A stretch of 64,000 nucleotides of DNA from Rhizomicrobium electricum (lineage in GTDB: Bacteria > Pseudomonadota > Alphaproteobacteria > Micropepsales > Micropepsaceae). The stretch lies in the NCBI RefSeq assembly GCF_011762045.1, contig NZ_JAASQS010000001.1, forward strand, positions 1 to 64,000. The letters are read 5' to 3'. The notes beneath the pieces were generated by a model that was not told the origin of the DNA, did not search any database, and saw only the letters and a list, made by a program, of their open reading frames with translations. Numbering within the stretch: position 1 is the stretch's first letter; each line of letters opens with the position of its first letter. The translations under genes were made by a program, and so were the position numbers. Below are positions 10,358 through 50,294 of the stretch, piece after piece.

Positions 10358-10359
10358 GA

Positions 10360-22295: not shown

Positions 22296-22398
22296 TTTAT
22301 TCCCCTCAAAACAAAGCCGCCCGCGATGGGCGCGCTGCTTTCAAGGGATAAAAACGGACCCCAGTGATAAACCGCAGGGAATTTTTGCGAAGATTTCG

Positions 22399-25058: not shown

Positions 25059-25242
25059 GCCGACGCAAAGAGAATGGTTGCGACGTTGAATCGGAGAGAA
25101 AACTGACAGCTATCCTATGATTATTCTTAAGTCCTGGAGCTGATCGCGGATATTGTATTTTGCCAACGTTATAGTCGCGGCGTTGCTGAAATAGTGCGCA
25201 TTTCCTAGCGTGCCCTGACCAAAGGCAATAAGGGGCACAGGA

Positions 25243-25800
25243 ATGTTCGGCAAATATATGGCTATCGCTTTGGCTGGATGTTTTGTTTCGCCTGCTGACG
25301 CCAATTCCAAGATCGAAACGGCCGGGACCGCAGTTGCCATTGCCATGCCGCTGGTGGCCGGTGGGATTACGGCCTACAAGCACGATTGGCAGGGCAGCGC
25401 ACAGCTAGTCGTATCGACCGCCTTGACGGTCGGAACCGTCTACGGGCTCAAGCATCTTGTCAAAGAATGCCGACCATTTGCAAAGCCGTGTACTCCGCAT
25501 GGAGATAATTGGGATTCATTTCCATCGGAAACGAGCGCTTTAGCCTCAGCGCCCGCAGGATTTTTGTGGCGGCGTTATGGATGGGAATATGGCGTCCCCG
25601 CTTTTGTCGCCTCCACCTTCGTCGGCTATTCGCGAGTAGATGCGAAAAAGCACCACTGGTGGGATACCGCGACCAGCACCGGCATTGCAATCATTTATAA
25701 TCGCTTGGTGACGACGAAGTACCACCGCCCAACCGGCTACTATTCAAGCCTGGATGGCGGAGCCGACGGCGCCTTTTTGACCGTCGGTTACCGCTGGTGA
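25243..25800 (+). CDS. PAP2-family phosphatase-like protein with altered second motif
   Basis: A 185-residue protein with a signal peptide or first membrane helix (ending near ADA). PAP2 motif 1 is present as KHLVKECRP, motif 3 as SRVDAKKHHWWD. Motif 2, normally PSGH, reads FPSETS, so the histidine is missing or replaced. Two to three hydrophobic helices support a membrane-associated enzyme of the lipid phosphatase kind. It is the first gene of cargo block 3 and stands apart from the operon that reads toward it. Activity is uncertain because of the motif 2 change. Confidence 0.8.
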   Translation: MFGKYMAIALAGCFVSPADANSKIETAGTAVAIAMPLVAGGITAYKHDWQGSAQLVVSTALTVGTVYGLKHLVKECRPFAKPCTPHGDNWDSFPSETSALASAPAGFLWRRYGWEYGVPAFVASTFVGYSRVDAKKHHWWDTATSTGIAIIYNRLVTTKYHRPTGYYSSLDGGADGAFLTVGYRW

Positions 25801-25806
25801 ACGCCC

Positions 25807-26604
25807 TCAAGGCGAAGAACTAACGTTTTCTGGATGTGATCCCGCGCGTTGAGGGATCAGAACGATACACCCGACCATGACGACTGCAATGATCGCTGTC
25901 GCCACCGGTCGTGAAACATTGAGCCCGCCTTGGGCAAAGGGTTTGTCGAAGAAATCGCCGACGGTGGCGCCGAGCGGTCGAGTAAGAATGAACGCCGCCC
26001 AGAACAACGCCACGCGCGACAGGCTGGTGGCGAAATAAGCCAGAGCAAGCAAGGCCAATCCCGCACCGAACACCGATGCGGCGCCAAGATAGCCAAGGCC
26101 CGAGGTGTCAGCCATCCAATCCCCCAACGCGGTGCCCAGCGTCTGGGAGAAGGTGATGGTCAGCCAATAAAACGCTTCCACCCGGGGCTTGTTGACCGAG
26201 GTGACCGAAACCGTTCCTTCGGCCCAATACCACAACGCCAGTGAAAGCAGAACGCACGCCAGCAGCACCGACGAGCCGCCGGTATAACCGATCCCGAGCG
26301 AGCGGTCGGCGAAATCAGCCAGGGTAGTGCCGGCCGTGGTCGAGGCAACGATGGTCGCCCAATAGAGGAAGGGATGAAACTTCCTGGCTATGATCTGAAT
26401 GGCGACGAAAGCGATCAGCAGGGAAAAGAAAATCGCCGTGCCGATCAGGTAGCCGTTGGGATTGGCGTGGGTCGTCGTCTCGCCAAGCCAGCTCATGGTG
26501 ACCGCGTCGCCGCCGGTTTCGCCCAAGGTGGTGGCGAGAATCTTGATGATCCAGAACCCGAGCGTAACCGCCGGAACCTTACTCAACACGGCATCTTTCG
26601 ACAT
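25807..26604 (-). CDS. DUF347-repeat membrane protein (COG4705 type)
   Basis: A 265-residue integral membrane protein. Four internal repeats, each with two membrane helices, carry related motifs: LGETGGDAVTMSW, AGTTLADFADRSLG, LGTALGDWMADTSG and LGATVGDFFDKPF. This fourfold repeat with acidic residues inside the membrane is the hallmark of DUF347. The start at 26604 (MSKDAVLSKV) has AGGGGTG just upstream; the longer frame overlaps the next gene and is rejected. Function is unknown; conserved acidic residues in helices would suit a cation transporter, which is only a guess. Confidence 0.82.
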   Translation of the reverse strand: MSKDAVLSKVPAVTLGFWIIKILATTLGETGGDAVTMSWLGETTTHANPNGYLIGTAIFFSLLIAFVAIQIIARKFHPFLYWATIVASTTAGTTLADFADRSLGIGYTGGSSVLLACVLLSLALWYWAEGTVSVTSVNKPRVEAFYWLTITFSQTLGTALGDWMADTSGLGYLGAASVFGAGLALLALAYFATSLSRVALFWAAFILTRPLGATVGDFFDKPFAQGGLNVSRPVATAIIAVVMVGCIVLIPQRAGSHPENVSSSP

Positions 26605-26615
26605 GGCACCCCTAC

Positions 26616-27344
26616 TCACAACGTGAAGAGAATGGACGAATACCAATTGAAACGGGCCGTTTCGGCGGTGTTCTGCAAGCCCGGTCCCGCATAAGCCAGC
26701 AGATGGACGTTTTCGCTGATGTCGTAGATCAAGCCGCCGCCGATGCCGCTTGACGCGCGCCCGTTTTTGGTGTCGGCGCCCTGATGGACGATCTCGGCAC
26801 CGATCAAAAGATCGGGCAACACGCGGCGGCTCAACGCCCAGCCCATCAGGCAATAATCTTGGCTGTCGCCGCCGCGGTTGATGACACATCCACCGCCGCC
26901 GAAGGTCGACCAGTCGCCCCAACTCCGTCCAGCCCAGATCGGCAACAGAAGCGAGAAGTGCTGGTCGCCGACATGGGCCGAAGCACTGGGCAGGAACAGT
27001 CGCGGGAAAATCGCCACGTCCCAGCCGATTTCTGCCTGATGCAGAAACCGGTATTTGGCGGCCAATTCGACATTGCCGATCCCCGCCACAGTCGGCCCGT
27101 CTGATGGCGCGGATACTTCCCACGGCACCACCGCGGTCAGTTGCAGATCGGGCGTGGCGCCATAGTTGAAATCGATGCCGTAAGACGATCCTGAGCCATC
27201 GAGCGCCTCGGAACCCTGCGCGAACGCGTAGATTTCATAGTGGCGGTAGTCAGTCGGCGCCGGATCATCCGAGACGAAAGGCGGCCCGGCAAAAGCAGCC
27301 GGCAGAATGCCAGCCAACGCAGCAGCGAAAACGAACCGACGCAT
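26616..27344 (-). CDS. Outer-membrane beta-barrel protein, MetA/phenol-pathway transporter-like
   Basis: A 242-residue protein with a signal peptide (ending AFA) and alternating beta-strand patterns through to a final ILFTL. Stretches such as FVSDDPAPTDYRHYEIYAFA and NVELAAKYRFLHQAEIGWD resemble outer-membrane proteins of the family that includes putative transporters of aromatic degradation clusters. It lies 11 bases upstream of the DUF347 gene and nine bases downstream of the YncE-like gene, so the three form one operon. The substrate cannot be named. Confidence 0.75.
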   Translation of the reverse strand: MRRFVFAAALAGILPAAFAGPPFVSDDPAPTDYRHYEIYAFAQGSEALDGSGSSYGIDFNYGATPDLQLTAVVPWEVSAPSDGPTVAGIGNVELAAKYRFLHQAEIGWDVAIFPRLFLPSASAHVGDQHFSLLLPIWAGRSWGDWSTFGGGGCVINRGGDSQDYCLMGWALSRRVLPDLLIGAEIVHQGADTKNGRASSGIGGGLIYDISENVHLLAYAGPGLQNTAETARFNWYSSILFTL

Positions 27345-27352
27345 GACCGCCT

Positions 27353-28375
27353 CTATTTCGCCGGCGCGAAGATCAACAGCTTGGCCGATCCGGGCTTGAC
27401 CGTATAGCGATGGCGCACGTCGCTCGCAGGCACCGCCTCATTGACTGCGTATTCGCCCGTCACGAGAAAGAGCCGCCCACTTTGGGGATCGATGGCCATC
27501 GTGCGCGCACCAATGGGAGTTTTGATCGGTGTCAGCGCTTCGAATTTGTCGCCTGACGTTTCCGCAATAACCGAAAGCGAACCATCGCGGTTGGAACTGA
27601 AGGCGCGATGGCGGACCGGATCGAACACCGCAAAATCGGTGCCCTCGCCAATGGGAAGGCTCGCCACCATCGCGCCGGTATCGGCATTGACGATGGCCAT
27701 CACCTTGTTCGCGCAACTGGCGAACAGGCGATGGTTGGAACGGTCGATGGCGAGCCCATGTGGCTTGAGACAGCCGGCCAGCGCCCAATGCGCGTCTACC
27801 GTGTTGGTGGCGGTGTCGATGCGAACCAGTTCATTCTTCTCGGCACCATCGACATAGAATTTGCCGTTCTCGCCCGACACACCGAATTCGAGACCGCCAC
27901 CCGCGTCTATGGTTGCCACCACGGTATCGCTTTTGGGGGCGATCACCGTCAGCTTGCCGGAATCGCCATCGATGACGAAGACGTGGCGGCTTGTCTGATC
28001 ATAGACGATGCCATCGGCATCCGGTTCGGCCTTCAGGGTTTTCAGCGGTTTGAAGGTGTTGAGGTCAAACACAACCGCCGTACCGGCCTTGCCGTCATCG
28101 GTATAGCCCTTTCCATCAACCACAGCGATCCCGTGTGGCCCGCCAGGTAGACCCTCGACCTCACCGATCCGCGCACCGCTCTGCCCATCCAGCACCGTCA
28201 CACGGTCACCATGCGCAACGTAGACGCGCCCGGATTCGTACACGACGTAGTCCCAGCGATCGGGCGCCCCGAGCGGCACAGTCTTGATCAGCCTGTATAA
28301 AGGGCCAGCCACGGCCGCCGAAACCAGCAGGCTCGTCGTTACAGCCAGGGCGAAAACGGTCAGAAGCTTTTTCAA
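27353..28375 (-). CDS. YncE-like secreted beta-propeller protein, copy 1
   Basis: A 340-residue protein. The TTG at 28375 is taken as start (LKKLLTVFALAVTTSLLVSA) because GAGGAG lies about eight bases before it and a signal peptide follows at once. Repeated blades include HGIAVVDGKGYTDDGKAG, FKPLKTLKAEPDADGIVYD and HGLAIDRSNHRLFASCANK. It is clearly related to the protein at 31057. YncE proteins are periplasmic seven-bladed propellers with DNA or ligand binding reported for E. coli YncE; the role here is unknown. It is divergent from the response regulator at 28519. Confidence 0.87.
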   Translation of the reverse strand: MKKLLTVFALAVTTSLLVSAAVAGPLYRLIKTVPLGAPDRWDYVVYESGRVYVAHGDRVTVLDGQSGARIGEVEGLPGGPHGIAVVDGKGYTDDGKAGTAVVFDLNTFKPLKTLKAEPDADGIVYDQTSRHVFVIDGDSGKLTVIAPKSDTVVATIDAGGGLEFGVSGENGKFYVDGAEKNELVRIDTATNTVDAHWALAGCLKPHGLAIDRSNHRLFASCANKVMAIVNADTGAMVASLPIGEGTDFAVFDPVRHRAFSSNRDGSLSVIAETSGDKFEALTPIKTPIGARTMAIDPQSGRLFLVTGEYAVNEAVPASDVRHRYTVKPGSAKLLIFAPAK

Positions 28376-28449
28376 GGCGGCGCACTCCTCAGGAGACCGC
28401 CCTTTGATACCCCAAATTGCCCGCGGTGCGACGGCGGGCGAACATTGTA

Positions 28450-28460
28450 TTTTCCCAACC
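28450..28460. promoter_or_regulatory. TTTTCCCAACC motif between yncE-like and response-regulator genes
   Basis: The 11-mer TTTTCCCAACC occurs here and again at 38279-38289, and its core recurs as GGTTGGGATATCCCAA at 35976-35991. All three stand in control regions of cargo block 3. Here it lies 58 bases before the response regulator start and 74 bases before the yncE-like start. It is a candidate binding site for one or both response regulators. Confidence 0.45.
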
Positions 28461-28518
28461 AGAAGACAGCAGCAGCCAACCAGCATAGAATCGCAACGCA
28501 ATCCCTTGGCCGCCTACT

Positions 28519-29199
28519 TTGAAGTTGCTGCTTATCGAAGACGATCAGGAAATGGCGCAGTTCGTCGCGACGGGCCTGCGCAAGGCCGGGCATTGGGTCG
28601 AACTCGCCAGCGATGGGGAAGCCGGGCTAACGCTGGCGCGAGGCAAGGCGTATGATCTGGCCCTGGTCGACCGGATGCTGCCAAAACTGGATGGCCTCAC
28701 CCTCGTCAAGACGCTTCGCGCGGAAGGTCTCGAAATCCCGATCTTGTTCCTGACCACCATGAGTGGCATCCGCGATCGGGTTGACGGCCTTGAAGCCGGC
28801 GCCGATGATTATCTCATCAAGCCCTTTGCCATGGCCGAGCTGATCGCGCGCGTCAGCGCCCTTTCCCGGCGCACCAAACGCGTAGGGGCGGAAATCCAAA
28901 CACAACTCAAGGCCGGTGACATCGAACTCGACACCTTGACGCAATCCGTGTCGCGCGCCGGCCAACGCGTGGAGTTGCAGCCGCAGGAATATCGCATTCT
29001 CGAATATCTCGCGCGCAATGCCGGCAAGGTAGTGACCCGCAGCATGCTGCTGCAAAACGTCTGGCAACTCCACTTTGATCCCCAGACCAACATCGTGGAA
29101 TCGCATATGAGCCGGCTGCGCGCCAAGCTCGACCGCGGCTTTGACACGGCAGCCATTCAGACGATCCGCGGAGAAGGGTATATTCTTCGTGCTGACTAG
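28519..29199 (+). CDS. OmpR-family response regulator 1
   Basis: A 226-residue regulator starting at a TTG with only a weak ribosome site. The receiver domain (1-120) has the acidic pocket EDD (7-9), the phospho-acceptor aspartate in LALVDRMLPKLDG (about 51) and the lysine in DDYLIKPFA (about 102). The winged-helix domain (about 130-226) ends IQTIRGEGYILRAD. It is encoded just before histidine kinase 1. It is similar in layout and wording to response regulator 2 at 37354. Confidence 0.93.
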   Translation: MKLLLIEDDQEMAQFVATGLRKAGHWVELASDGEAGLTLARGKAYDLALVDRMLPKLDGLTLVKTLRAEGLEIPILFLTTMSGIRDRVDGLEAGADDYLIKPFAMAELIARVSALSRRTKRVGAEIQTQLKAGDIELDTLTQSVSRAGQRVELQPQEYRILEYLARNAGKVVTRSMLLQNVWQLHFDPQTNIVESHMSRLRAKLDRGFDTAAIQTIRGEGYILRAD

Positions 29200-30592
29200 A
29201 CTGCACAAAAGCGAAAGCGTCCGCCTCACCGCCATCGTCGCCGCGGTCATCGTCGGGGCCATGATCGTATTGATGGCTCCGGTTTACATCATCATGCGCG
29301 ACGCTTTCCGCGCTGAACTCTTCAATGGTGTCAATCAGGACATTTCCGCGGTCGAAGCCGGATATCGACACGAGGGCCTCGCAGAAGCGCACGAAGTCAT
29401 AGATCAGCAACTTTCCAATCCCCGCACACGTGCCTTCATTGTGTTGCAACGCCTGCCGGCAGACAAAATCGCTGGCAACTTGCCGGCCATGGTGCAGCGC
29501 GTCGGCACCTTAACGCTCGATATGCCACCATCGCTTCTAGACGGCCGCAAGCAAAGCGATCACCGCATCCTCGGCAAGGGCGTCATGCTCGCTCCTGATC
29601 TATATCTCTTCGTGGGGCGCGATGCCTTTGTCGCCATTGAGGCGCGCGAGCATGTGTTGCAGACCTTCGCTTGGGTGCTGTTTGCCACGCTGTTGGTTGC
29701 CCTTGGCGGAGGCGCGCTGGTGAGCCGCAGCGTGCTGGGACGCATGGAAGCGATCACGCGGACCTGCCAGGCGATTATGGCCGGGCGCCTTTCGGACCGC
29801 GTCCCGGAACGCGGCAGCGAAAGCGAGTTCGACATGCTCGCCCGCGCCATCAATGCCATGCTCGACCGCATCAACGCGCTGATGGAAAACGTACAGCAGG
29901 TGTCCAATGATATTGCGCACGACCTGCGCACGCCGCTGAGCCGTTTGCGCAACCGGTTGGAACTGGCACTTTCGGAAGCGACGACGACCGACACTTACCG
30001 GCAAACCGTGACAGATGCCATTCGGGAATGCGAAACCATCCTGGCGACATTTACATCCCTTTTGCGGATCGGCCAGATCGAAGCCGCAGCAGGAACCACG
30101 CCGCGTGAACCGGTGGACCTTTCGGCACTGTTGAGCGAACTGGTCGAAATCTATCAGCCCGCCGCCGAAGACGGCGAATTCGCTCTGCAATCGCACATTG
30201 CGCCGGGTTTGACTGTGCCGGGCGATAGATCGCTGCTGTCCCAGGTCTTCGCCAATCTGATCGAGAATGCCATGGCACATACGCCAGCGGGCTCGACAAT
30301 ACTCGTCGATCTCGTGCCAGAAGAATCGGCAGTCACTGCCACGGTCGCCGACAACGGTCCGGGCATACCCGAGGACGAGCGCGAACACGCCCTGCGCCGG
30401 TTCTATCGCTGCGAACGCAGCCGGTCGACGCCAGGTAGCGGCTTGGGCCTGTCGCTCGTCGCCGCCATCGCGCGCTACCATGGCGCTGCACTCACGCTCG
30501 ACGACAATAAGCCTGGCTTGCGCGTGACACTCTCATTTCCCGTCATCGACAGGCTTGCCCTTACTGAGACGCCGCATGGATTATTGCACTAG
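29189..30592 (+). CDS. EnvZ-type sensor histidine kinase 1
   Basis: A 467-residue kinase. The GTG at 29189 is the likely start (VLTRLHKSESVRLT); it overlaps the regulator gene by 11 bases. Two membrane helices (about 12-35 and 155-178) enclose a periplasmic domain of only ~120 residues. A HAMP domain (TCQAIMAGRLSDRVPERG) precedes the H box DIAHDLRTPLSRLRNRLE, the N box in FANLIENAMAHTP and the G boxes ADNGPGIP and STPGSGLGLSLVAAI. The small sensor domain with GVMLAPDLYLFVGRD is shared with kinase 2 (QLAPGVYAFVGRD), which suggests related signals. Confidence 0.92.
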   Translation: MLTRLHKSESVRLTAIVAAVIVGAMIVLMAPVYIIMRDAFRAELFNGVNQDISAVEAGYRHEGLAEAHEVIDQQLSNPRTRAFIVLQRLPADKIAGNLPAMVQRVGTLTLDMPPSLLDGRKQSDHRILGKGVMLAPDLYLFVGRDAFVAIEAREHVLQTFAWVLFATLLVALGGGALVSRSVLGRMEAITRTCQAIMAGRLSDRVPERGSESEFDMLARAINAMLDRINALMENVQQVSNDIAHDLRTPLSRLRNRLELALSEATTTDTYRQTVTDAIRECETILATFTSLLRIGQIEAAAGTTPREPVDLSALLSELVEIYQPAAEDGEFALQSHIAPGLTVPGDRSLLSQVFANLIENAMAHTPAGSTILVDLVPEESAVTATVADNGPGIPEDEREHALRRFYRCERSRSTPGSGLGLSLVAAIARYHGAALTLDDNKPGLRVTLSFPVIDRLALTETPHGLLH

Positions 30593-30604
30593 GGAGAGAC
30601 GCTG

Positions 30605-31042
30605 ATGTCCAATATTGGCATGCCGCCGTGGCTCATTTGGGCGCTGCTGTCCGCAACCTTTGCGGCCTTGACCGCAATCTTCGCCAAGCTGGGCGTGGAG
30701 CGCGTCGATTCCGATCTTGCCACCTTCTTGCGCACCCTCATCATCGCGGCAGTCCTGGGGCTCGCCCTATTCATCAGCGGCAAGCTGCAGCCCGCAACCA
30801 GGATTGGTCCGCGCACGTGGGCCTTCCTTATCGCATCCGGCTTGGCCACAGGCGCATCCTGGTTCTGCTATTTTCGTGCTCTTAAGGTTGGGGATGCTGT
30901 ACGCGTTGCGCCCATCGACAAGCTCAGCGTGGTATTCGTCGCCATCATTGGCGTTGCACTGTTGGGCGAAAATTTGCCGCTGCGCGGCTGGGCCGGCATC
31001 GCCCTAATCGCCGCTGGCGCCGCCCTGGTGGCAACGGCATAA
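30605..31042 (+). CDS. EamA-family single-domain membrane transporter
   Basis: A 145-residue protein with about five membrane helices, equal to one EamA half. It starts PPWLIWALLSATFAALTAIF and ends RGWAGIALIAAGAALVATA, both typical. Such half-size members probably work as dimers. AGGGAGAGACGCTG precedes the ATG. It follows kinase 1 by 12 bases and may be in its operon. The substrate is not known. Confidence 0.85.
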   Translation: MSNIGMPPWLIWALLSATFAALTAIFAKLGVERVDSDLATFLRTLIIAAVLGLALFISGKLQPATRIGPRTWAFLIASGLATGASWFCYFRALKVGDAVRVAPIDKLSVVFVAIIGVALLGENLPLRGWAGIALIAAGAALVATA

Positions 31043-31056
31043 TAGACTAACAGAAT

Positions 31057-32082
31057 CTACGGCGCAGCCGGATCGAGCATCAGCAGTTTCGCCGATCCCG
31101 GCTTCAACGTGTAGCGGTGGCGCATATCGGCGGCGGACGGATTTTCTTCGAAATCGCCGGTGACCAGAAACAAGCGCCCAGTCTTGGGGTCGATCGCCAT
31201 GGTGCGGGCGCCATACGCCGTCTTTACCGGCGGCAAGGCAACAAAGGTGTTCGCGTCCTTCTCAGCAATCACTGACAACGTACCATCGCGATTGGCGCTG
31301 AAAGCCCATTTGCGGACCGGATCGAACACCGCAAAGTCGGTGCCCTCGCCGATCGGCAGACTGGCAAGTAGCGTACCGTTGGCCGCGTCCACCACCGTCA
31401 TCACTTTGTTGGCGCAGGAAGCGAACAGGCGCATTGCGGCCCGATCGATCGCCAATCCATGCGGCTTGATGCAGCCCTTCATCGGCCAGTGCGCATCGGC
31501 TTTGTTGGTTTTGACGTCGATACGAACAATCTCGCCCTTCTCGGCACCGTCGACATAGAATTTGCCGTTCTCGCCAGAGACGCCGAACTCGAGACCGCCA
31601 CCCGCGTCCACCGTTGCAACGACCGTATCGGTCCTGGGGTCGATCGCCGTAATCTTGGCGGAATCGCCGTCGATCACCAGGATATGACCGCTGACCGGAT
31701 CGTATACGATGCCATCGGCGTCGGGTTCGGCCTTGATGGTTTTCAACACCTTGAGCGTCTTGAGATCGAACACCAGAACCGTGCCAGCTTTGCCGTCATC
31801 GGTGTAGCCCTTGCCATTGGCAAAGGCGATCCCGTGCGAACCACCGTTCGTACCAAGAACATGGCCGACCACGGTGCCAGTCTTGTTGTCCACCACCGTC
31901 ACCCGGTCGCTGTGGGCAACAAACACGCGATCCTGGGCGGCGTCGTAGGACACATAATCCCACCGATCCGGCGCGTCGAGCGCAACCTCCTTGACCACAC
32001 GATAGGACAAACTCTGAGCAAAAGACGGGGAAAGGGCGAAGGCCACGAGCGCTGTGAAGGCAAGACACTTAGCGATGCGCAT
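31057..32082 (-). CDS. YncE-like secreted beta-propeller protein, copy 2
   Basis: A 341-residue paralog of the product at 27353 with a clear signal peptide (ending SFAQS). Shared stretches include GKGYTDDGKAGT, LEFGVSGENGKFYVDGAEK and LPIGEGTDFAVFDPVRK, so the two genes come from a duplication. It lies downstream of the phosphoesterase gene with about 30 bases between, in an operon with it and the TonB receptor at 33272. The pairing of a propeller with a phosphoesterase and receptor suggests a joint envelope function; what it binds is unknown. Confidence 0.88.
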   Translation of the reverse strand: MRIAKCLAFTALVAFALSPSFAQSLSYRVVKEVALDAPDRWDYVSYDAAQDRVFVAHSDRVTVVDNKTGTVVGHVLGTNGGSHGIAFANGKGYTDDGKAGTVLVFDLKTLKVLKTIKAEPDADGIVYDPVSGHILVIDGDSAKITAIDPRTDTVVATVDAGGGLEFGVSGENGKFYVDGAEKGEIVRIDVKTNKADAHWPMKGCIKPHGLAIDRAAMRLFASCANKVMTVVDAANGTLLASLPIGEGTDFAVFDPVRKWAFSANRDGTLSVIAEKDANTFVALPPVKTAYGARTMAIDPKTGRLFLVTGDFEENPSAADMRHRYTLKPGSAKLLMLDPAAP

Positions 32083-32111
32083 GAAAGTTTGTCCAAGCTG
32101 GGTTGATCGGA

Positions 32112-33233
32112 TCAGCGAGCGGTCCTGACGGCGAAAAGCGGAGACATCGAAACGACTCCCTTTTCCGTATCGCCAGCATGGCCTAAATGTTCGGGAATAC
32201 CAAAGGCGTCTTCAATGGTCCGGAGCAGAGAATAGTGATTGTAAGGCGTAGGATCCTTCGTCTGGTGCGGACCATGGTTGGTGATGACCAGTGTCATGAT
32301 CCGGCCGCCGCCGAAATTGGCCGCACTGTTCGGATCGTAGCCGCAGCATCCTTGCGGACCGGAGAGGCGCTCATCACCGCCATTCTCATCGAAGGAAACC
32401 ACGATGGCAGAGTTGCCCGGCGCGCTCCAGACCGGCGACGCCATGATGAGTTTCACCAAGCGACCGACTTCAGCATCGCCGCGGTGAATGAGGCCTTGCA
32501 GATTCCCGCTCCTGCAATCCTCCGGCACCACACCGCCGTCCTTGGCGCCTCGCCCGTGCATTTCATTGCACTGATTGGGCACGATGATCGCGAAATTCGG
32601 CATGGTACCCGAGGCGAGATCGGCATCGAGCTGGTTGAAGCCGACCAGAAGGGACATCAACTCGGAATAAGGCCGGCTGTTGACCGACCTGAAGTTGACA
32701 AACCCGCTATGTTTCGCGGCATAGAGCGCATTCGGCAGATTGGCGGCCGGATAGCCGGGCGACGGCCATGCCGGAACAAGAGAGCCCGGCCCGGGAATGT
32801 CCTCCATATAGGATTTCCAGGTGAGCCCTTTGTCGCCCAGTTGGTCCATCAAACTGCGCGCCGTGATGTTGTGGTCGACATAGCCGGACTGATCGGATTT
32901 GGCGCAAAACGCCGATTTCGGTCCCGGCTTGCAGAAGAACGCATCATCATCATGAACGCCAAAGGTGTCGCCGCCGAGAAGTGCGATGTAGTTGGCCTCG
33001 CTCGGATGCACTTCGGCATAGAATTGCGTGGCCAGGCCATACTCAGCAGCAAGCCTATTCAGATTAGGCGCCCAATCGGGATGCCCCATGATCTGCTCAA
33101 TGCCCTTGTTCTCCTCCATGAGGACGAAGATATGGTCGTAATGGGGAACGGCAGGCTTTGTTGCGCCCAAGGCTGCAGACAGGACAAGGCATGGGAGCGC
33201 ACCACACCGCCAGAGCCAATTTCGCAGTCCCAT
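32112..33233 (-). CDS. Secreted phosphoesterase, phospholipase C/acid phosphatase AcpA-like
   Basis: A 373-residue protein of the phosphoesterase family that includes bacterial phospholipases C and AcpA. The start at 33233 (MGLRNWLWRCG) has GGAGGGTGGGAC directly before it and is followed by a signal peptide. The nucleophile region near the N-terminus is HIFVLMEENKGIEQIMG, and the later metal site region includes VVSFDENGGDE and VITNHGPHQT. DDDAFFCKPGPKSAFC suggests a disulfide. The gene lies between receptor A and YncE copy 2. The phosphoester substrate is open. Confidence 0.88.
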   Translation of the reverse strand: MGLRNWLWRCGALPCLVLSAALGATKPAVPHYDHIFVLMEENKGIEQIMGHPDWAPNLNRLAAEYGLATQFYAEVHPSEANYIALLGGDTFGVHDDDAFFCKPGPKSAFCAKSDQSGYVDHNITARSLMDQLGDKGLTWKSYMEDIPGPGSLVPAWPSPGYPAANLPNALYAAKHSGFVNFRSVNSRPYSELMSLLVGFNQLDADLASGTMPNFAIIVPNQCNEMHGRGAKDGGVVPEDCRSGNLQGLIHRGDAEVGRLVKLIMASPVWSAPGNSAIVVSFDENGGDERLSGPQGCCGYDPNSAANFGGGRIMTLVITNHGPHQTKDPTPYNHYSLLRTIEDAFGIPEHLGHAGDTEKGVVSMSPLFAVRTAR

Positions 33234-33271
33234 GTCCCACCCTCCGGTTCGCTTGAAGACCAATTACAGGA

Positions 33272-35863
33272 TTACAGTTTCAGGCGGACGCCGCCCTCAA
33301 AAGTCTGATCGTAAAACTCGCGCTGGATCACCCAATTCGGCGCGCCAAGGAAGATGCGCAAGGGCGCATTGGTGATGTTCTTGACGTTGAAATAGGCCGT
33401 CACGTTGTCGGTGAAATCGTAACTCGACGTCCAGTCCAGCGTGAAGCGGGAGTCCTCGAACTGGTCCGTCGAGCGGTCCGTGCCCACCTGGTAAAGGCTG
33501 TGGGCGATGTACTGTGAGGCAAACCGGAGTTTCAGGCCGCAGGCCTCGTAGAACAGTCCCGCATTCATCGTAACCGGCGACGTACCCGGTAAGGAATGGC
33601 CTGCTTCACCCGTCCTCAGCGATCCGCTCGAGGTCACATAGGCGACATTTCCGTCGAAGCCAAAACCATCGAGAGGCTTGGGCAGGAACGTGAATTTCTG
33701 CTGGTAAGCGAACTCCAATCCGCGGGCGTACGAAGTGTCGAGATTGCCGTAGCTGATCAGTTTCACCGGTGTGGCGCCCGGAAGCCGCGGGTCGCCAGCA
33801 ACGGTCATCGACGAAGTATAGATGTAGTTCCGAAATTCCTTATCGAACGCACCCAATTCGATGATGCCCCCGTCTTCGAGATAATACTCGATATCGAGAT
33901 CGAAGTTGCTCCCCGTGACAGGCTTCAGCGTGGGATTGCCCATGGTAATGGTGTTGTTGTCGGAATTGACCGACGTGCCCAGCGCGACCTGCGCGAAGCC
34001 GGGCCGGCCGATCCCGGTCGAATAGGTCGCCCGGGCCTGAAGGTCGTCGGCAAAGCTGTAGCGCACCTGCACCGTCGGGAACACATCGACATAGTCGTGC
34101 CGCATCCGGGTATAGACCGTGTTGTCTCCGTTGGAGTCGGCATCGTAGAAAGCATACTTCGCGACAGTGTTCTCCACACGGACACCAGCGAGAACGCCCC
34201 ACGGCCCCGCCTCGCCGGTGTACATCGCATAACCGGCATAGATGTTTTCGTCGGCGTCGAACCAAGTCGAATTGTCGACACTGAAGCCGCCATAGGTGAT
34301 CGCGCTCGAGCCTTCCAGCGCCGGCATGTTGAGACCTGGGCCGTTGGTGTAACGACCATGATAGAACGAGGTGTCGGCTGCGAGCGGCGAAAGCGTGGCT
34401 AGAACCGGCTTGCTTCCGAACAAGGTGATCGATTGCGGCAATTCGTAAAAGGTCTTGTCGCGCAGACGAGCACTGAATCCGACCTTGATTTCATCTTTGT
34501 CGCTTAAGAAATCAACCGGAACCGCCACATTGGCGCTGTAGGCCCATTCCTCGTCGGCGCCCTTCGCCTTTTTGTTGCTGAACTTCGAGAGCTTGTAGAG
34601 TGATGGATCGTTGATGTCGGTTCCGTCGGTCACCGCCATGGCCGGAAAATTCGGGCTATCGATATTGTCATACGTGACAGCAACCGTCGGCCCTTTGAAC
34701 GTCGTACCATAGTTGCGGCCGGTCGACAGCGTCGCGCGCGAATAAGACACCCGGTAATCGAGCTTGAAGGCATGGAAATCGTCTTCGCCGCCGACCGCAT
34801 AGACGTTGTTGCGGACGATCTGGTCGACATCGGTCCCCTTGATGGTGAGATCGGAAGACGCCGAGACATTGTTTCCGGAGGCCGTCCCGCTCAGGGAATT
34901 GAAGATCAGATGATGCTTGATGATGGCTTCATCGTAGCCGAACATGTTGCCGCGGATGTACCAGCGATGCTCGTCATTCGGCGTGAAGTCGAATTCGCCG
35001 CCGACACCGAAACGCTTGCGGTGGGCATCGTAGAAGCGGAATTGGAGGTCGTCGTACACCTTCGCGGCAGCCGAGGTTGGGTTAGCCGGATTGTTGATGT
35101 AATCCTCTTCGATATCGTCGAAACCGCGCTTATCCTCCCGCCACGACGCATCCAATACGATGGAGAACGGCGTCGGATTGGAAACAAATCCCGGATTGAC
35201 CCGCCCAAGGCTTTGGCCGCGCTCCATCACGACCGCGCCGTTCTCGATGCCGAAACGGCCGCCGATCGCGATATCAGCATTGAACGGACCGCCGTGATCG
35301 TGGGCCGGCTCCAGACCGTAGCCCAAGCTCAAATCGACAAACGGCTCGGTGATGTTCGCGGCGGTGCGTGGCGTCAACTCAACCGTACCGCCAAGACCTT
35401 CCGCGTCGTGATCGGGCGAACCCGTCTTGGTGACGATGATGCCGTCGATCGCGCCACCCGGGATGGTATCAAGCTCGACCGCACGACCGCCGCCCCCCTG
35501 GTAAGTGCCACCCGGATCGGTGTTGAGCAGGACAACGCCGCCGTACGTCGTTCCGTTGAGATTGCCGTCGATACCGCGGATCATCACAAAGCGGCCCTCG
35601 CCGGTGTCGCTCATCAGCGCGATCCCGGGCATGCGGGACAACGATTCCGCAGCATTGACGTCGGGAAACTTGAGCATTGTTTCGGCCGGTTGCACATTGA
35701 CGATGTTCAACGCCGCCCGCTGTTGCAGTCGCGCCTGATCTTCGAACCGCGACGCCGACACAACAACGCTTTCAAAATCGGCCGACGTCTCGGCGAACGC
35801 CGGAGACAGTGCGATCAAGGCGCAGCCGCCAAGCAAAAAGCGGCTCATTTCCCTGAGATTCAT
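33272..35863 (-). CDS. TonB-dependent receptor A
   Basis: An 863-residue receptor, with the start placed at 35863 (MNLREMSRFLLGGCALIALS) where a signal peptide follows. The upstream open frame has no family match. The plug includes NAAESLSRMPGIALMSDTGEG and PGGAIDGIIVTKTGSPDHDA with a long glycine-rich insertion (YQGGGGRAVE), of the type common in Caulobacter-like receptors. The C-terminus is QTFEGGVRLKL. No N-terminal signalling domain is present, so control is probably by the adjacent two-component system. The phosphoesterase gene follows 38 bases on. Confidence 0.92.
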   Translation of the reverse strand: MNLREMSRFLLGGCALIALSPAFAETSADFESVVVSASRFEDQARLQQRAALNIVNVQPAETMLKFPDVNAAESLSRMPGIALMSDTGEGRFVMIRGIDGNLNGTTYGGVVLLNTDPGGTYQGGGGRAVELDTIPGGAIDGIIVTKTGSPDHDAEGLGGTVELTPRTAANITEPFVDLSLGYGLEPAHDHGGPFNADIAIGGRFGIENGAVVMERGQSLGRVNPGFVSNPTPFSIVLDASWREDKRGFDDIEEDYINNPANPTSAAAKVYDDLQFRFYDAHRKRFGVGGEFDFTPNDEHRWYIRGNMFGYDEAIIKHHLIFNSLSGTASGNNVSASSDLTIKGTDVDQIVRNNVYAVGGEDDFHAFKLDYRVSYSRATLSTGRNYGTTFKGPTVAVTYDNIDSPNFPAMAVTDGTDINDPSLYKLSKFSNKKAKGADEEWAYSANVAVPVDFLSDKDEIKVGFSARLRDKTFYELPQSITLFGSKPVLATLSPLAADTSFYHGRYTNGPGLNMPALEGSSAITYGGFSVDNSTWFDADENIYAGYAMYTGEAGPWGVLAGVRVENTVAKYAFYDADSNGDNTVYTRMRHDYVDVFPTVQVRYSFADDLQARATYSTGIGRPGFAQVALGTSVNSDNNTITMGNPTLKPVTGSNFDLDIEYYLEDGGIIELGAFDKEFRNYIYTSSMTVAGDPRLPGATPVKLISYGNLDTSYARGLEFAYQQKFTFLPKPLDGFGFDGNVAYVTSSGSLRTGEAGHSLPGTSPVTMNAGLFYEACGLKLRFASQYIAHSLYQVGTDRSTDQFEDSRFTLDWTSSYDFTDNVTAYFNVKNITNAPLRIFLGAPNWVIQREFYDQTFEGGVRLKL

Positions 35864-35975
35864 GACGACACCCCATATTGGGCGGCGCATGCCCGCCGCT
35901 CGTTCATCCCAAGGGCATAAATGGACCGGCCGTTTGCCGGATCGCAGACGGTTTGGTGAACGCTCAGAGAACTTA

Positions 35976-35991
35976 GGTTGGGATATCCCAA
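35976..35991. promoter_or_regulatory. GGTTGGGATATCCCAA motif upstream of receptor A
   Basis: This 16-base element contains the 14-base perfect palindrome TTGGGATATCCCAA (35978-35991). It lies 113 bases before the receptor A start, between that gene and the end of kinase 2. Its half GGTTGGGA is the reverse of the CCCAACC core found at 28450 and 38279. It is a likely operator for receptor A and the genes after it. Confidence 0.45.
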
Positions 35992-36005
35992 TGTGTGCGC
36001 ATGAA

Positions 36006-37370
36006 TTAGACAGATGCGCTGGACACGGGAAACCGGACGACAACACGCAAACCAGGGTTGTTATCCAGGAGTTCGAGTTCGGCCCCGTGCAATTCTACGA
36101 CGGCAGCCACCAGTGCGAGACCAAGACCGCTGCCCGGCTGGGTGCGGCTCTGCTCCAGCCGATAGAAGCGGCGGATCACTTTGGTTCTGTCCGGGACGGG
36201 AATGCCGGGTCCGCGATCCGCCACGATCAGAACCGGCCGACCGTTCTCCATGCCGGACATCACAGCGATATCGGTGCGATCAGGGGTGTGCGCGATGGCA
36301 TTGTTGAGAAGGTTCGATACCAGCTGCAACAGCAACTGTTCGTCGCCGCAAACTGCGACAGCTGCGCCTGCTTCCACCTTAAAATCGCGGACCGCATCTT
36401 CCATGACGGGCGCGTAGATATCGTGTGCCGATTTGATCACGTGCGCCAAGTCGACAGCGCGAAATTCCGAACGCCGGGCCCCCGCCTCGATCTGGGCAAT
36501 CCTGAGAAGCGCGGTGAAGATCGCGAGCAGCTTGTCGCATTCGGCTGTCGCGCCATCCACCGCCGCAGCATATTCGTCCTGCGTCTGCGCTTCGCCCCGT
36601 ATTCTGTCCAATCTGTGCCGCAAATGGGTCAGCGGCGTCCGCATGTCGTGGGCGATGTCGGTCGAAACCTGGCGAAGGGACTCCATCAGCGCTTGGATGC
36701 GATCCAGCATTTCGTTGATCGCCAGCCCGAGGCGGTTGAACTCGTCGCCGTGTTCGGCCGCCGGAATGCGCCTGCTCATCTGCCCGGCCATGATGCCGCG
36801 ACAGGTCTGGGTGACGGTGTCGATGCGCCGAACGAAGCTTCGGCTCAGCAACAATGCAAATAATGACGCCAATACCAAACTGACGAGAAGAACAACGCCA
36901 AATGCTCGCAACAAACGCGTTTCGGTGTCCTTCAGCTGCTGCAGATCACGCCCAACAAAGGCATAGACGCCCGGTGCCAACTGTGCGCCGCGCCCCAATA
37001 TTGTGTGACGCGAGGCCGGTACGGTCATCGCGAAAACACCCAAGCGAGGCGCCATAGAAGGCAAATTGCCGGCAACCCGCACGCGCCCCCGTTGCAGCAG
37101 GAAAACGTCGTCCGCATCGGGCGCCAAGAGCCGGTCCTCGACGATCTCCGCCGCTTCATGCAGCGCTTTTCCGGGCTTGGCGGTAAGGTACGCCGTTCGC
37201 ATCGACGTCAAGTCGTCGTCAATCTCACGCATGAGATTGGCTTTGAACGACTGGTTCAGCATTACATAGGTGATGCCGATCAGAACCGCCATCGACAGGC
37301 CGAACAGCCCGCCATACAGAATCGCGTGCCGGAAACTATCGGTGCGGAACAGCCTACGGGGATACGACAT
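36006..37370 (-). CDS. EnvZ-type sensor histidine kinase 2
   Basis: A 454-residue kinase built like kinase 1: membrane helix near 20-42, short periplasmic domain, second helix near 165-190, HAMP (TCRGIMAGQMSRRIP), H box STDIAHDMRTPLTHLRHRLD, N box LVSNLLNNAIAHTP, G boxes ADRGPGIP and TQPGSGLGLALVAAV. The ATG at 37370 overlaps the stop of regulator 2 by 17 bases. A GTG four codons upstream is also possible. It is encoded between receptor A and its own regulator and probably senses a substrate or product of the phosphatase-receptor module. Confidence 0.92.
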   Translation of the reverse strand: MSYPRRLFRTDSFRHAILYGGLFGLSMAVLIGITYVMLNQSFKANLMREIDDDLTSMRTAYLTAKPGKALHEAAEIVEDRLLAPDADDVFLLQRGRVRVAGNLPSMAPRLGVFAMTVPASRHTILGRGAQLAPGVYAFVGRDLQQLKDTETRLLRAFGVVLLVSLVLASLFALLLSRSFVRRIDTVTQTCRGIMAGQMSRRIPAAEHGDEFNRLGLAINEMLDRIQALMESLRQVSTDIAHDMRTPLTHLRHRLDRIRGEAQTQDEYAAAVDGATAECDKLLAIFTALLRIAQIEAGARRSEFRAVDLAHVIKSAHDIYAPVMEDAVRDFKVEAGAAVAVCGDEQLLLQLVSNLLNNAIAHTPDRTDIAVMSGMENGRPVLIVADRGPGIPVPDRTKVIRRFYRLEQSRTQPGSGLGLALVAAVVELHGAELELLDNNPGLRVVVRFPVSSASV

Positions 37371-38025
37371 AGCCGTGGCCACGCACCGTGTGAATCATCT
37401 CCGTGGAGTGGCCGCGGTCGATCTTGGAGCGCAGTCGCGACATGTGGGATTCGACAATATTGGTTCCGGGATCAAAATCGAGATTCCAGACGTTCTCGAG
37501 CAGCATCATGCGCGTGATCGTCCGTCCCGCGTTCTGCATCAAATATTCTAGTAATTTGAACTCCTGCGGCTGCAACTCGACCTGGCGACCCTCGCGCGAA
37601 ACTGTACGCTCCAACAGGTCCATCTCGAGCGAGCCGGCCTTCAGGCGCGTCGACGTGCCATTACGACTCGTACGCCGGACGATGGCATTCACCCGCGCCG
37701 CCAGTTCCGACATCGCGAATGGCTTTGTGAGATAGTCATCGGCGCCGGCATTCAGCCCATCCACCCTGTCATCGAGGCCGCTCATCGTCGTCAGCATGAG
37801 CACCGGCGTATCGCAGCTTTCAGCCCGCAGCATACGCACCATCGACAGTCCGTCCATGCCCGGAAGCATGCGGTCGACGATCATCAGCGCGTAGTGCCCG
37901 GCGCGCGCCTGGCAAATTCCGTCCTTGCCGGTCGTGGCCCAATGCACTGCCTGCCCGAGCTTCTGCAAACCCTCCGTGACATAGAGAGCCGTCTCAGGAT
38001 CATCTTCGACAAGCAGGATATCCAT
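37354..38025 (-). CDS. OmpR-family response regulator 2
   Basis: A 223-residue regulator with a receiver domain (EDD at 7-9, aspartate in LMIVDRMLPGMDG, lysine in DDYLTKPFA) and a winged-helix output domain ending IHTVRGHGYVVSP. It is similar to regulator 1 over the whole length, down to LTTMSG and ENVWNLDFDPGTNIVESHMS. It is divergent from receptor B, with 394 bases between the starts. The two regulators may bind the same TCCCAACC-type sites. Confidence 0.93.
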   Translation of the reverse strand: MDILLVEDDPETALYVTEGLQKLGQAVHWATTGKDGICQARAGHYALMIVDRMLPGMDGLSMVRMLRAESCDTPVLMLTTMSGLDDRVDGLNAGADDYLTKPFAMSELAARVNAIVRRTSRNGTSTRLKAGSLEMDLLERTVSREGRQVELQPQEFKLLEYLMQNAGRTITRMMLLENVWNLDFDPGTNIVESHMSRLRSKIDRGHSTEMIHTVRGHGYVVSP

Positions 38026-38278
38026 TGTGCGAGGCGCGACAGGAAAGTCACAGTGGGTGAGAAACTAGAATTATGTGATAGAGATCGATCTTGGCAGTTT
38101 TGTTACAGCGCCAACTCGGATTGCGCCGGAAGGCTCAGCCCCGCGTTCAGCCGGCGGGCAATGGTATGCATTTCAATTGATTGACTGCACTTTCGATATG
38201 CAGTTGACGGACATTACAAGAGAAGCCGCGCCGATTCTCCGATGCCGGCCATGACCGTCAAATCGGCTGCCGGTTAAA

Positions 38279-38289
38279 TTTTCCCAACC
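38279..38289. promoter_or_regulatory. TTTTCCCAACC motif in the 394-base gap before receptor B
   Basis: The gap 38026-38419 between regulator 2 and receptor B holds no gene. It contains the 11-mer TTTTCCCAACC, identical to that at 28450-28460, 130 bases before the receptor B start. AGGGGT serves as the ribosome site at 38409-38414. The rest of the gap shows no clear hairpin. Confidence 0.45.
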
Positions 38290-38419
38290 TTCTGCCAAAA
38301 AAGCTTTGAAGAGCCCCTTTAGTAACCGCTGCGTTCCGCGAGCCGACGTTCAGTCAATCCAATGAACGGCGGCAGTGGACGTTCATCGCGGCAGGGACCG
38401 CATAACGAGGGGTAAAGTA

Positions 38420-40888
38420 ATGTTTGCACGCAGCGATGCTGCGCGCCGTTTGGCGCGCACGACGTCCACTTTGGCTATTACGGCGGCCTGGTTCGCCACA
38501 GCGGCTTGCGCGGCCGAAACCCTCGGCGGCGTTGGTACCGGCGTCGAGACCGTGGTCGTGACGGGCACCCAATTCGACCCCGAAGTGGCCCCGGCCAAGG
38601 CCTCGCTCGACACCACCGAACCGCAGACCATCCTGACGCGGACCTATATCGAGAATTCGGTGGCATCGACTGCCGACTACACGACGCTTCTCGCCATCGT
38701 GCCGTCGCTCACGGGTCTTGATGTCAATGGACCGGGCCTGTCCGACGGCAACGTCAAGAACACCCTGCGCGGCATGCCAGACGGCAATTTCGGCATGACC
38801 TATGATGGCATTCCGTTCGGCGACACCAACGGTCCGACGCACCATTCCGCCTCCTATTTTCCGAGTGCGGTAATCGGCAGCGTCAATGTCGAACGCGGTC
38901 CCGGCAATGCCGGCAATCTCGGTGCCTCCACCTGGGGCGGCTCGATCAACATGTATTCCGAGGCACTGAACGACGATTTCGGGTTCAAGGCTAATCTGAC
39001 GCGCGGCTCCTGGGCCACGACCCAAGTCGGTCTGAACCTTCAATCGGGCGACATCCCTGGTCTTGGCAAAACCCGCGTTCTGGCGAATGTGAACGGACTT
39101 CAGAGCGAAGGCTACCTCAGCAACCAGGGGCTGATGAAGGACAACGAACTCATCAAGATCGAAAGCGAATTCGCCCCCGGTTGGACCCTTACCCTGTTCA
39201 CCAACCGCAACCAGTTGCATCAGCACGTCAACGACAAGAACGGCGCTACGGCCATTCAGATCGCCGATTTCGGCAAGCAGTATGCGCTGCAGAAGACCGA
39301 CCCCACCCGGCCCGATTACTATTACTACAACTACGCCGACAAGATCACCGACATGGACTACATCCGCCTGCACGGCGCGGTCACCGACTGGCTCAGCATC
39401 GACGACCAGGCCTATACTTACGCTTACGTCAACAAGACGGTGACGACCACCAGCACGCAGCAGACGATCAGCAAGGGCAAGCTAACCTGGAAGACAATGG
39501 GCACGACGGTGGTGGATCCGGTCACCGGTGTCGTTACGCCGTCAGCCAATACGGCAAGCGACATTCCCGGCTACACCAAGCTCAACGCCTACCGGGTTTG
39601 GGGCAACGTGTTCCGCGCCACCGCCGATTTCGACGCCGGCTGGTTGACGGGCCAGGTGCGCGCCGGCGTATGGTGGGAAGGTCAGGCGACCGAGCGCCAG
39701 CGCTTCTATTACGACGTGACCCAATGCGCCGCCGCGGGCTGCAATCCCTGGAAACAGGCGTGGAACTTTGCCGATATCTCGAACAAGAACGCCTCCAACG
39801 ATCCTTCGCTCGTTGCGGGCCGCTATGGCGTCGGCTATTACGAACACACCGGCTGGAACCAGGTCGAACCGTTTGTGGAAGTCGAACTGCACCCGCTGCC
39901 GGACCTGACGATCACCCCCGGCTTCAAATACATCGATTGGGATCATACCGTTGATCCCAACTCGGTGATCTCCGGCACCGCGACGGCGGCCACAAAGGGG
40001 TGCGCCGGCAAGTGCCAGGGCCCCACGCTCTACAACGGCAAGGTCGACACCTACACGACCAGCCGGCCGCTCTATTTCACGACGGTCAATTACAAGATTC
40101 AGCCGAGCTGGAGCGCCTATTTCCAGTATGCCACCGGCATCTACGTTCCCGACATCACCGATTTCGAACAGCAGAAGCCGGATTTATCCAAAGCGCCGTC
40201 GCCGATGACCACGGCCAACTACCAGTTCGGCACCGTCTATTACGCCGATGATTTCTCGGTTGACGCCGATGTCTACTACATCGCCGCCAAGCACAACTAC
40301 ACCTACGGGCCTTGCTCCTACGATACGAGCCTCACTTGCCCGACTGACACCGGCAATGCGACCTACAAGGGCATCGAGGGCGAAGCGAGCTTCAAGCTCG
40401 ACGCACTTGTGCCCGGCATCACCGACGGCCTGCTGGCGTTTGCCAACGGCTCGGTCAATTCGGCCAAGTCCAGCTTTGCCCAGTTGAAAAACGCGCCGTA
40501 TTGGACCGCGGCGGCGGGCCTCATCTATAAGCGCGACGGCTTCTCCTTCTCACTGGTCGACAAGACGGTGGGCCAGCAATATCTGGACAATGCGGACGCA
40601 ACCGGCCATCGCACCACAATCGGCCAGGACGGCATGCCGTTCTTCCGCCTGCCCGCCTATTCGACCGTCAACTTCATCACCGCTTATGACTTCGGCAAAT
40701 GGGAGCTGTCGGTGGCCGTCAACAATCTGCTCGACGACCGCAGTCTCGTCAGCATGAGCGGCACGGACGGGAAGGATACCGCCACTGCCGCATCGGCGTC
40801 GGATTACATGAATCGTCCAACCAGCTCCGATCAGTACTATTTCCAATCTTCGCGCAGCTTCCAGGTGACCTTGAAAGCGAAGATCTGA
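38420..40888 (+). CDS. TonB-dependent receptor B
   Basis: An 822-residue receptor. The start at 38420 (MFARSDAARRLART) follows AGGGGTAAAGTA. A signal peptide ends near AACAAE, and the segment ETVVVTGTQFDPE may be the TonB box region. The plug has TLRGMPDGNFGMTYDGIPFG and VIGSVNVERGPGNAGNLGAS. The barrel is rich in tyrosine and ends FQVTLKAKI. No signalling domain is present. The acid phosphatase gene lies 58 bases downstream in the same direction, so receptor and phosphatase are probably made together. Together they suggest uptake of a molecule released from a phosphoester, or of the phosphoester itself. Confidence 0.93.
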   Translation: MFARSDAARRLARTTSTLAITAAWFATAACAAETLGGVGTGVETVVVTGTQFDPEVAPAKASLDTTEPQTILTRTYIENSVASTADYTTLLAIVPSLTGLDVNGPGLSDGNVKNTLRGMPDGNFGMTYDGIPFGDTNGPTHHSASYFPSAVIGSVNVERGPGNAGNLGASTWGGSINMYSEALNDDFGFKANLTRGSWATTQVGLNLQSGDIPGLGKTRVLANVNGLQSEGYLSNQGLMKDNELIKIESEFAPGWTLTLFTNRNQLHQHVNDKNGATAIQIADFGKQYALQKTDPTRPDYYYYNYADKITDMDYIRLHGAVTDWLSIDDQAYTYAYVNKTVTTTSTQQTISKGKLTWKTMGTTVVDPVTGVVTPSANTASDIPGYTKLNAYRVWGNVFRATADFDAGWLTGQVRAGVWWEGQATERQRFYYDVTQCAAAGCNPWKQAWNFADISNKNASNDPSLVAGRYGVGYYEHTGWNQVEPFVEVELHPLPDLTITPGFKYIDWDHTVDPNSVISGTATAATKGCAGKCQGPTLYNGKVDTYTTSRPLYFTTVNYKIQPSWSAYFQYATGIYVPDITDFEQQKPDLSKAPSPMTTANYQFGTVYYADDFSVDADVYYIAAKHNYTYGPCSYDTSLTCPTDTGNATYKGIEGEASFKLDALVPGITDGLLAFANGSVNSAKSSFAQLKNAPYWTAAAGLIYKRDGFSFSLVDKTVGQQYLDNADATGHRTTIGQDGMPFFRLPAYSTVNFITAYDFGKWELSVAVNNLLDDRSLVSMSGTDGKDTATAASASDYMNRPTSSDQYYFQSSRSFQVTLKAKI

Positions 40889-40946
40889 TCACCGGCGACT
40901 TAACGGGGGCGGCTTGGCCGCCCCATCTTCCTTGAGAGGACCTGAC

Positions 40947-41636
40947 ATGATGAAGCGCACAATCTTGGCGGCCGCAACGGCTCTCGTCCTGATGCTGCCG
41001 GGTTTCGCTGCGGACACACAGCTCCTGCCGGCAACGCCTCCAGCCCAACTGCTGCCTTCACCGCCCACCGACGGCTCGGCAGCACAAAAGCGCGAACTTG
41101 ACGAAATCCATCAGGCCCAGCAGGGCATGACGGATGCCGACTTTGACCAGGCTGCCGCCGACGACAAAACCGAAGACGCCTCGGTCTTCAATGGCGTTGT
41201 CGGCATTGATCTCAAGACCCTGCCGAAAACCTGGGCGCTGCTCGCCACGGTGCGCAACGAGGAGAAAACCGCCGCCAAAATTGCCAAGAACACTTTTTTG
41301 CGCAACCGGCCCTGGGTGCTCGATCCGGCGCTCAAGACCTGCACCCGCGGCGATGCTCCGCGGTCGTCCTATCCCAGCGGTCATTCCACCATGGCCTACA
41401 GCATGGCAGTCATCTTGGCCGCGATGATTCCGGAAAAGGCGCCGGCCATTCTCGACCGCGCCAAGGCCTACGCCGAAAACCGCATCGTCTGCGGCGTGCA
41501 TTATCGCAGCGACATCGTTGCCGGTCAGGTGCTCGGCACGACCGTTGCTGAGGAGTTACTTACAGTTGGTGCCTTCCAAGCCGATTTCAAGCTCGCGCAA
41601 ATGGAATTGCGGACGGCCCTCAAGAGCGGCAGATAG
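40947..41636 (+). CDS. Periplasmic class A acid phosphatase, PAP2 family (PhoN-like)
   Basis: A 229-residue secreted enzyme with a signal peptide ending near FAAD. All three motifs of the PAP2 phosphatases are present: KNTFLRNRP (K x6 RP), PSGHS and RIVCGVHYRSD (R x5 H x3 D). GAGAGG precedes the ATG at 40947. The length fits bacterial class A non-specific acid phosphatases, which remove phosphate from many organic esters. It is in a likely operon with receptor B. It closes cargo block 3; nothing can be supported between 41637 and 41830. Confidence 0.92.
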   Translation: MMKRTILAAATALVLMLPGFAADTQLLPATPPAQLLPSPPTDGSAAQKRELDEIHQAQQGMTDADFDQAAADDKTEDASVFNGVVGIDLKTLPKTWALLATVRNEEKTAAKIAKNTFLRNRPWVLDPALKTCTRGDAPRSSYPSGHSTMAYSMAVILAAMIPEKAPAILDRAKAYAENRIVCGVHYRSDIVAGQVLGTTVAEELLTVGAFQADFKLAQMELRTALKSGR

Positions 41637-50287: not shown

Positions 50288-50294
50288 GCGTCTC

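Follow-up and report, generated by a model that had tools for sequence, protein, structure and literature searches.

What could a block of genes that joins two sensor-regulator pairs, two TonB-dependent receptors, secreted propellers and phosphatases do for its carrier? In the 64,000-nucleotide stretch of the Rhizomicrobium electricum genome analysed here (the window), such a block spans positions 25243-41636. A preliminary description, made from the letters alone, had listed two OmpR/EnvZ pairs, two YncE-like proteins, two TonB receptors, phosphatases, a PAP2 protein, a DUF347 protein, a barrel and a half-size EamA transporter, and Pfam and NCBIfam profiles recovered all of these gene classes. 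An isolated plus-strand gene at the left end (25243..25800) encodes a PAP2-superfamily protein (PF01569, 2.9e-10) with a weak match to LpxE (5.6e-6). In the first of two divergent pairs, which is compactly laid out, the minus strand carries the secreted beta-propeller YncE1 (27353..28375; TIGR03866 1e-14, YncE 5e-9), an outer-membrane barrel of the Phenol_MetA_deg family (26616..27344; PF13557, 6.5e-7) and an MmfC2-like DUF347 membrane protein of 265 aa (25807..26604; PF03988, 9.3e-53). Opposite them, on the plus strand, lie the OmpR-family response regulator RR1 (28519..29199; Response_reg, Trans_reg_C), the sensor kinase HK1 (29141..30592; HAMP/HisKA/HATPase), with an EAHE sequence of the ExxE type in its periplasmic domain, and the EamA half-size transporter of 145 aa (30605..31042; PF00892, 6.3e-25).

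The second divergent pair sets a minus-strand group against a plus-strand one. On the minus strand are the OmpR-family regulator RR2 (37354..38025; 67% identical to the RR2 that adjoins TBDT2-PhoC in genome G026), the sensor kinase HK2 (36006..37382; a profile match and an EAAE, hence ExxE, motif), TonB-dependent receptor 1 (TBDT1, of the TonB-Xanth-Caul family; 33272..35863; TIGR01782 4.9e-114, above the cut-off), a PF04185 phosphoesterase of the PLC/AcpA kind (32112..33233; 8.9e-29) and the secreted beta-propeller YncE2 (31057..32082; 76% to the G026 copy). On the plus strand, receptor 2 (TBDT2, 38420..40888; PF07715 1.7e-7, Pfam seeing the plug only; 76% to G026), for which no solved-structure relatives were found, precedes a PAP2 enzyme of the class A acid-phosphatase type (PhoC/PhoN; 40950..41636; NF045654 6.8e-21, and 2.4e-22 to acid phosphatase 7f18). 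These coordinates include corrected starts for DUF347 (26604; the listed reading frame, extending to 27123, was mis-started), YncE1 (28375), receptor 1 (35863) and receptor 2 (38420). Several names hold at family level. At 35-48 bits against a cut-off of 400 for the NCBIfam YncE equivalog, the propellers are YncE-like only, and the PhoC protein, at 74.9 bits against 430, is a relative of PhoC rather than PhoC itself. Both regulators score best with the CopR/CzcR subfamily model TIGR01387, at 223.5 and 227.7 bits, below its cut-off of 279.2, and they also fall below the PhoB cut-off.

The block sits on an integrative conjugative element, in agreement with the mobile setting described earlier: genes for the coupling protein TraG, a relaxase and SLT/S26 proteins lie on its left side (2404-8724), and a RovC-type regulator, an integrase (54934-56154) and tRNA-Asp (56256-56332) on its right. 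The window begins at a contig end, apparently within the element, and the tRNA end was not found a second time, as direct repeats would require; nor did we find a close plasmid or phage copy of the whole block. Other genes share the element. A HipA-type kinase and an AbiEi/AbiEii toxin-antitoxin pair (44524-45801, 52815-54505) lie between cargo and integrase, and a set at 46820-51107 (DUF1365, an amine oxidase-type flavoprotein, an ECF sigma factor with a ChrR cupin anti-sigma, DUF1295) resembles the singlet-oxygen (SigE-ChrR) operon. A sigma factor with an NrsF-type anti-sigma and a molybdopterin oxidoreductase occupy 9734-14492; by analogy to Caulobacter, whose copper core response includes NrsF and sulfoxide reductase genes (PMC8224329), this hints at a wider metal-stress cargo. 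Directly left of the block, and omitted from the preliminary description, is a FecI-FecR-TonB receptor unit with an STN domain (19575-23948, minus strand). It may belong to the module, since FecR is found no more than a few kb from barrel-DUF347 in G026 (L092), G010 (L097) and a Phenylobacterium locus (L046). On the chromosomal side, an EF-hand reading frame (56728-57315) adjoins tRNA-Asp; in G026, YncE2 is followed by a similar EF-hand lipoprotein (L066, 5809-6366), which we considered as a lanmodulin-type protein and rejected, for it is an ordinary EF-hand lipoprotein lacking the lanmodulin signature.

How did the two halves come together? The block had been described as a set of paralogous pairs, one unit duplicated and then diverged. 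Pairing holds for the propellers (65% identity), regulators (60%) and kinases (41%); it fails for the receptors, which show no mutual match at E 1e-3, and for the two PAP2-superfamily proteins, which differ at the catalytic PSGH motif. Duplication of one block is contradicted by the trees, which place each copy beside different outside relatives: YncE2 groups with the G026 and G010 copies (support 100/98) and YncE1 falls outside, and RR1 groups with L030, L079 and L081 (96/96), RR2 with G026 (100/99). The copies therefore parted before the present arrangement arose, and since the two halves have separate relatives, each with a distinct gene order, the joining of two related modules appears likelier than the copying of one block in place. 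In G026, TBDT1-phosphoesterase-YncE2 and TBDT2-PhoC each have their own kinase, the two being 61% identical, whereas in the window one sensor pair lies between both units.

Recurrence elsewhere identifies the gene set as a real, recurrent mobile module with sensing, TonB-uptake and phosphatase parts. The set is met again, piecewise, in further soil bacteria, across the genus, Caulobacterales and sphingomonads. A Caulobacterales contig (L048) holds nine of the families in ~12 kb (PhoC, receptor 2, EamA, HK, RR, phosphoesterase, YncE, DUF347 and barrel), and the Phenylobacterium locus combines HK, RR, receptor 1, phosphoesterase, YncE, DUF347 and barrel in 9 kb. The order HK2-TBDT1-phosphoesterase-YncE2 is found in G026; PhoC-TBDT2 divergent from RR2-HK2, the order of the window's right half, is found in G026, G016, G031 and G009, where these loci often run on into YncE or an RND pump. 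The barrel pairs with DUF347 in several genomes, and either or both stand together with YncE in G013, G021 and G035. A further version, HK1-RR1-PepSY-YncE plus an RND pump (G020, G024, G030; loci L079, L081 and the S. paeninsulae plasmid L058), resembles the window in its regulator-kinase pair and YncE and, within the genus, in its promoter box, but carries PepSY and a tripartite RND pump, both missing from the window. A Paraburkholderia FT54 plasmid (L115, 1465-10885) encodes AcpA, a TonB receptor, YncE, ExbB, ExbD and TonB consecutively, a self-contained energised version. The gene set is thus not confined to this genome, contrary to the outcome that the preliminary description had named as refuting it. 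Among the genus and sampled class-mates, 10 of 32 phosphoesterase, DUF347 or receptor matches lay ≤10 kb from a YncE match, as against ~0.24 expected from random placement in 3.5-Mb genomes with contig breaks ignored.

Could this be a gathering of independent operons on a conjugative element, with no joint function? Single operons do stand alone in some genomes, and the separate ancestry seen in the trees fits that idea; clustering far above chance, the nine families together on L048 and a shared box at two promoters, its exact copies unique in the genome, speak against it, and we regard it as quite improbable. This box, ATTGTATTTTNCCAAC, occurs in exact form within the 4.73-Mb genome only upstream of the PAP2 gene (ATTGTATTTTGCCAAC, 25152..25167, plus strand) and of regulator 1, between YncE1 and RR1 (ATTGTATTTTCCCAAC, 28444..28459, plus strand). 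The consensus ATTGTATTTT[G/C]CCAAC has exactly these two genome copies (25152, 28444) and three further sites at two mismatches, the reversed control giving 0. A variant with three mismatches to the RR1 box, GTTAAATTTTCCCAAC (38273..38288, plus strand), was footprinted against G026 in the RR2-TBDT2 intergenic region. The box is kept upstream of RR1 in L077, L079, L081, L138 and L147. Allowing one mismatch, 12 genomes of the genus hold 19 sites (reversed control, 1), and 12 of these stand upstream of module genes, a count that tells of the box's location and not its frequency, as some of the genomes were picked for carrying the module. The genes concerned are RR1/PepSY (twice in G005; G020, G024, G030), YncE (twice in G005; G020, G024), barrel-DUF347 (G010, G026) and, in G005, a TolC-type efflux gene adjoining HK1. 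From its position, we infer that RR1 binds the box. In the Phenylobacterium locus, a different exact 16-mer, TTGCGAAATTGCAAGG, at 5763 and 9785, is common to the RR/TBDT1 and phosphoesterase/YncE promoters and is likely the operator of that version. UzcR-like CATTAC boxes were rejected, being scattered without promoter repeats.

We agree with the preliminary description that no named system has the whole content, and a literature search for the combination of YncE, PAP2, TonB and two-component genes found no paper. Of the systems described so far, none comes closer than the mmf cassette of Tn6048, known from Cupriavidus metallidurans and the IncP plasmids pAKD16 and pHB44 and reported to be zinc- and lead-induced; it comprises PepSY, a UPP phosphatase, two DUF347 proteins, MmfD, MmfR/MmfS and EamA. 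Operons of DUF347 with UppP are reported to be up-regulated by lead (PMC4531530), and the mmf-bearing plasmids pHB44 and pBS64 did not confer resistance to any of the heavy metals assayed (PMC4914505). Shared between cassette and block are PAP2/UPP, DUF347, an OmpR/EnvZ pair and a half-size EamA on a mobile element, with 63.6% identity of the window's DUF347 protein to MmfC2 and 58.5% of its EamA protein to the 143-aa EamA of Tn6048. In contrast, mmf has no TonB receptors, YncE, PF04185 phosphoesterase, PhoC or barrel, PepSY and MmfD gave no tblastn match in the window, and the regulators (RR1 34%, RR2 36% to MmfR) fall far outside in the tree and are no orthologues. Given these non-orthologous regulators and the missing PepSY and MmfD, the block is not an mmf member; we have filed it as a mobile two-component-controlled envelope/metal cassette related to mmf.

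The sensors bear on what such a cassette might respond to. The ExxE motif (E82, E85) is invariant in all 10 close kinases although most of the sensor is variable, and it is missing in more distant kinases. ExxE is the Fe3+/Zn2+ ligand of PmrB, ColS and VgrS: in ColS, it is required for Fe3+/Zn2+ sensing (PMC4074579); in VgrS, a kinase with control over a TonB receptor, it binds Fe3+ (PMC5231390). By analogy, the motif in HK1 and HK2 points to metal cations. ColRS, PmrAB and VgrRS likewise carry ExxE in a periplasmic sensor and control a TonB receptor (tdvA) or envelope phosphate genes, but their regulons differ from the one proposed here, and in ColS the motif adjoins TM2 (PMC4074579) rather than lying mid-domain as in the window's kinases. 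The DUF347 protein has eight predicted helices and an acidic residue in each repeat, with E29, D33, D97, D162 and D217 invariant; its confident model (pLDDT 89) retrieved nothing from Foldseek at E<=0.001, and in VIA Z did not exceed 7, a background level, so that no fold was assigned. We discarded heavy-metal RND pumps as proof of a metal role, since the pumps of the relatives score below both the heavy-metal and the multidrug cut-offs.

The window's PhoC keeps the KX6RP...PSGH...RX5H...D motifs, as do 12 relatives; the isolated PAP2 protein has its PSGH histidine replaced (PSET in the alignment). The PF04185 phosphoesterase scores 101 bits against a gathering score of 23, its presumed active site (E51, N52, D292, E293, H343) is invariant in eight relatives, and profile matches include PlcH (9gye) and AcpA (2d1g). 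Its model, used for superfamily assignment only owing to low confidence (pLDDT 61), shows an alkaline-phosphatase-like fold akin to those of phospholipase C, LtaS and the MCR/EptC enzymes. The phosphatase slot beside receptors and propellers varies by genome between PAP2-type PhoC, PF04185, a metallophosphoesterase (N. pentaromativorans) and AcpA (Paraburkholderia FT54, next to receptor-YncE-ExbB-ExbD-TonB), with PAP2 in N. capsulatum. Because unrelated phosphatases fill the same slot, hydrolysis of phosphate bonds probably matters to the module, the phosphate feeding the cell or binding metal.

These observations lend themselves to different readings. The preliminary description favoured acquisition of an organic phosphate, whereby the receptors would import an ester, PhoC and the PF04185 enzyme would free phosphate in the periplasm, and the sensors would detect the ester or phosphate shortage. 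The varied phosphatases beside receptors, in one case with a full ExbB-ExbD-TonB set, speak for it; so does PhoC, found directly 3' of TBDT2 in most close loci with its active site kept. Caulobacter UrpRS, a uranium-responsive sensor pair that has a phytase under its control (PMC8963506) and is likened to the window by description only, offers a precedent. However, the regulators fit the CopR/CzcR type better than PhoB, no Pst/Pho genes were recognised near the block, RND efflux, PepSY, DUF347 and EamA are ill-suited to phosphate uptake, and half of the cassette is common to the zinc- and lead-induced mmf genes. Acquisition of organic phosphate is still a serious rival, if clearly less likely than not. 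Remodelling of lipid A or phospholipids in the fashion of PmrAB or ColRS, in which the PAP2 and PLC-type enzymes would modify envelope lipids as a protection from cationic peptides or further toxins that attack the envelope, seems unlikely to us. The weak LpxE match, the predicted fold of the phosphoesterase and the LPS and phospholipid genes in the ColR regulon (PMC4074579) would fit, but such remodelling needs neither two TonB receptors nor secreted propellers, and the PAP2 protein is without its PSGH histidine. Defence against a phosphorylated toxin, also raised earlier, found no positive evidence.

We favour, tentatively and at a little under even chance, a mobile envelope regulon that has two sensors, responds to metal cations (Fe3+, Zn2+, Pb2+ or similar) and includes TonB-uptake and phosphatase arms, given the half of the cassette shared with mmf and the conserved ExxE sensors. 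HK1 and HK2 would detect a cation through their periplasmic ExxE. Targets of RR1 would be its own gene, YncE1-barrel-DUF347 and PAP2, plus PepSY and RND efflux in relatives, and their activation would lead to cation export or an altered envelope. RR2 would drive TBDT1-phosphoesterase-YncE2 and TBDT2-PhoC, by which a metal-bound phosphate ester could be imported, or freed phosphate could bind metal outside the cytoplasm; the net direction might be either uptake or detoxification. The mmf kernel, ExxE, the RR1 box and the acidic DUF347 repeats favour this metal regulon. Against it stand the 34-36% identity to MmfR, the position of ExxE relative to ColS, RND pumps below cut-offs, the failure of pHB44/pBS64 to confer resistance to the metals tested and the block itself, in which no P-type ATPase, CDF, czc or other classical metal-resistance genes were recognised. 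More speculatively, and with rather low probability, the YncE propellers might be the periplasmic link between TonB import of a metal-phosphate-ester complex, its dephosphorylation and cation export, all under paired ExxE sensors and related operators and exchanged by conjugation among soil bacteria.

Three elements are new: the regulon box, sensors with an ExxE motif and kinship to mmf. So far, no job is known for YncE-like propellers, for DUF347 proteins or for many TonB receptors; the gene set, together with its promoter box, provides a first testable context for them, and it offers a reading for the mmf genes of Tn6048, which had been left as function-unknown.
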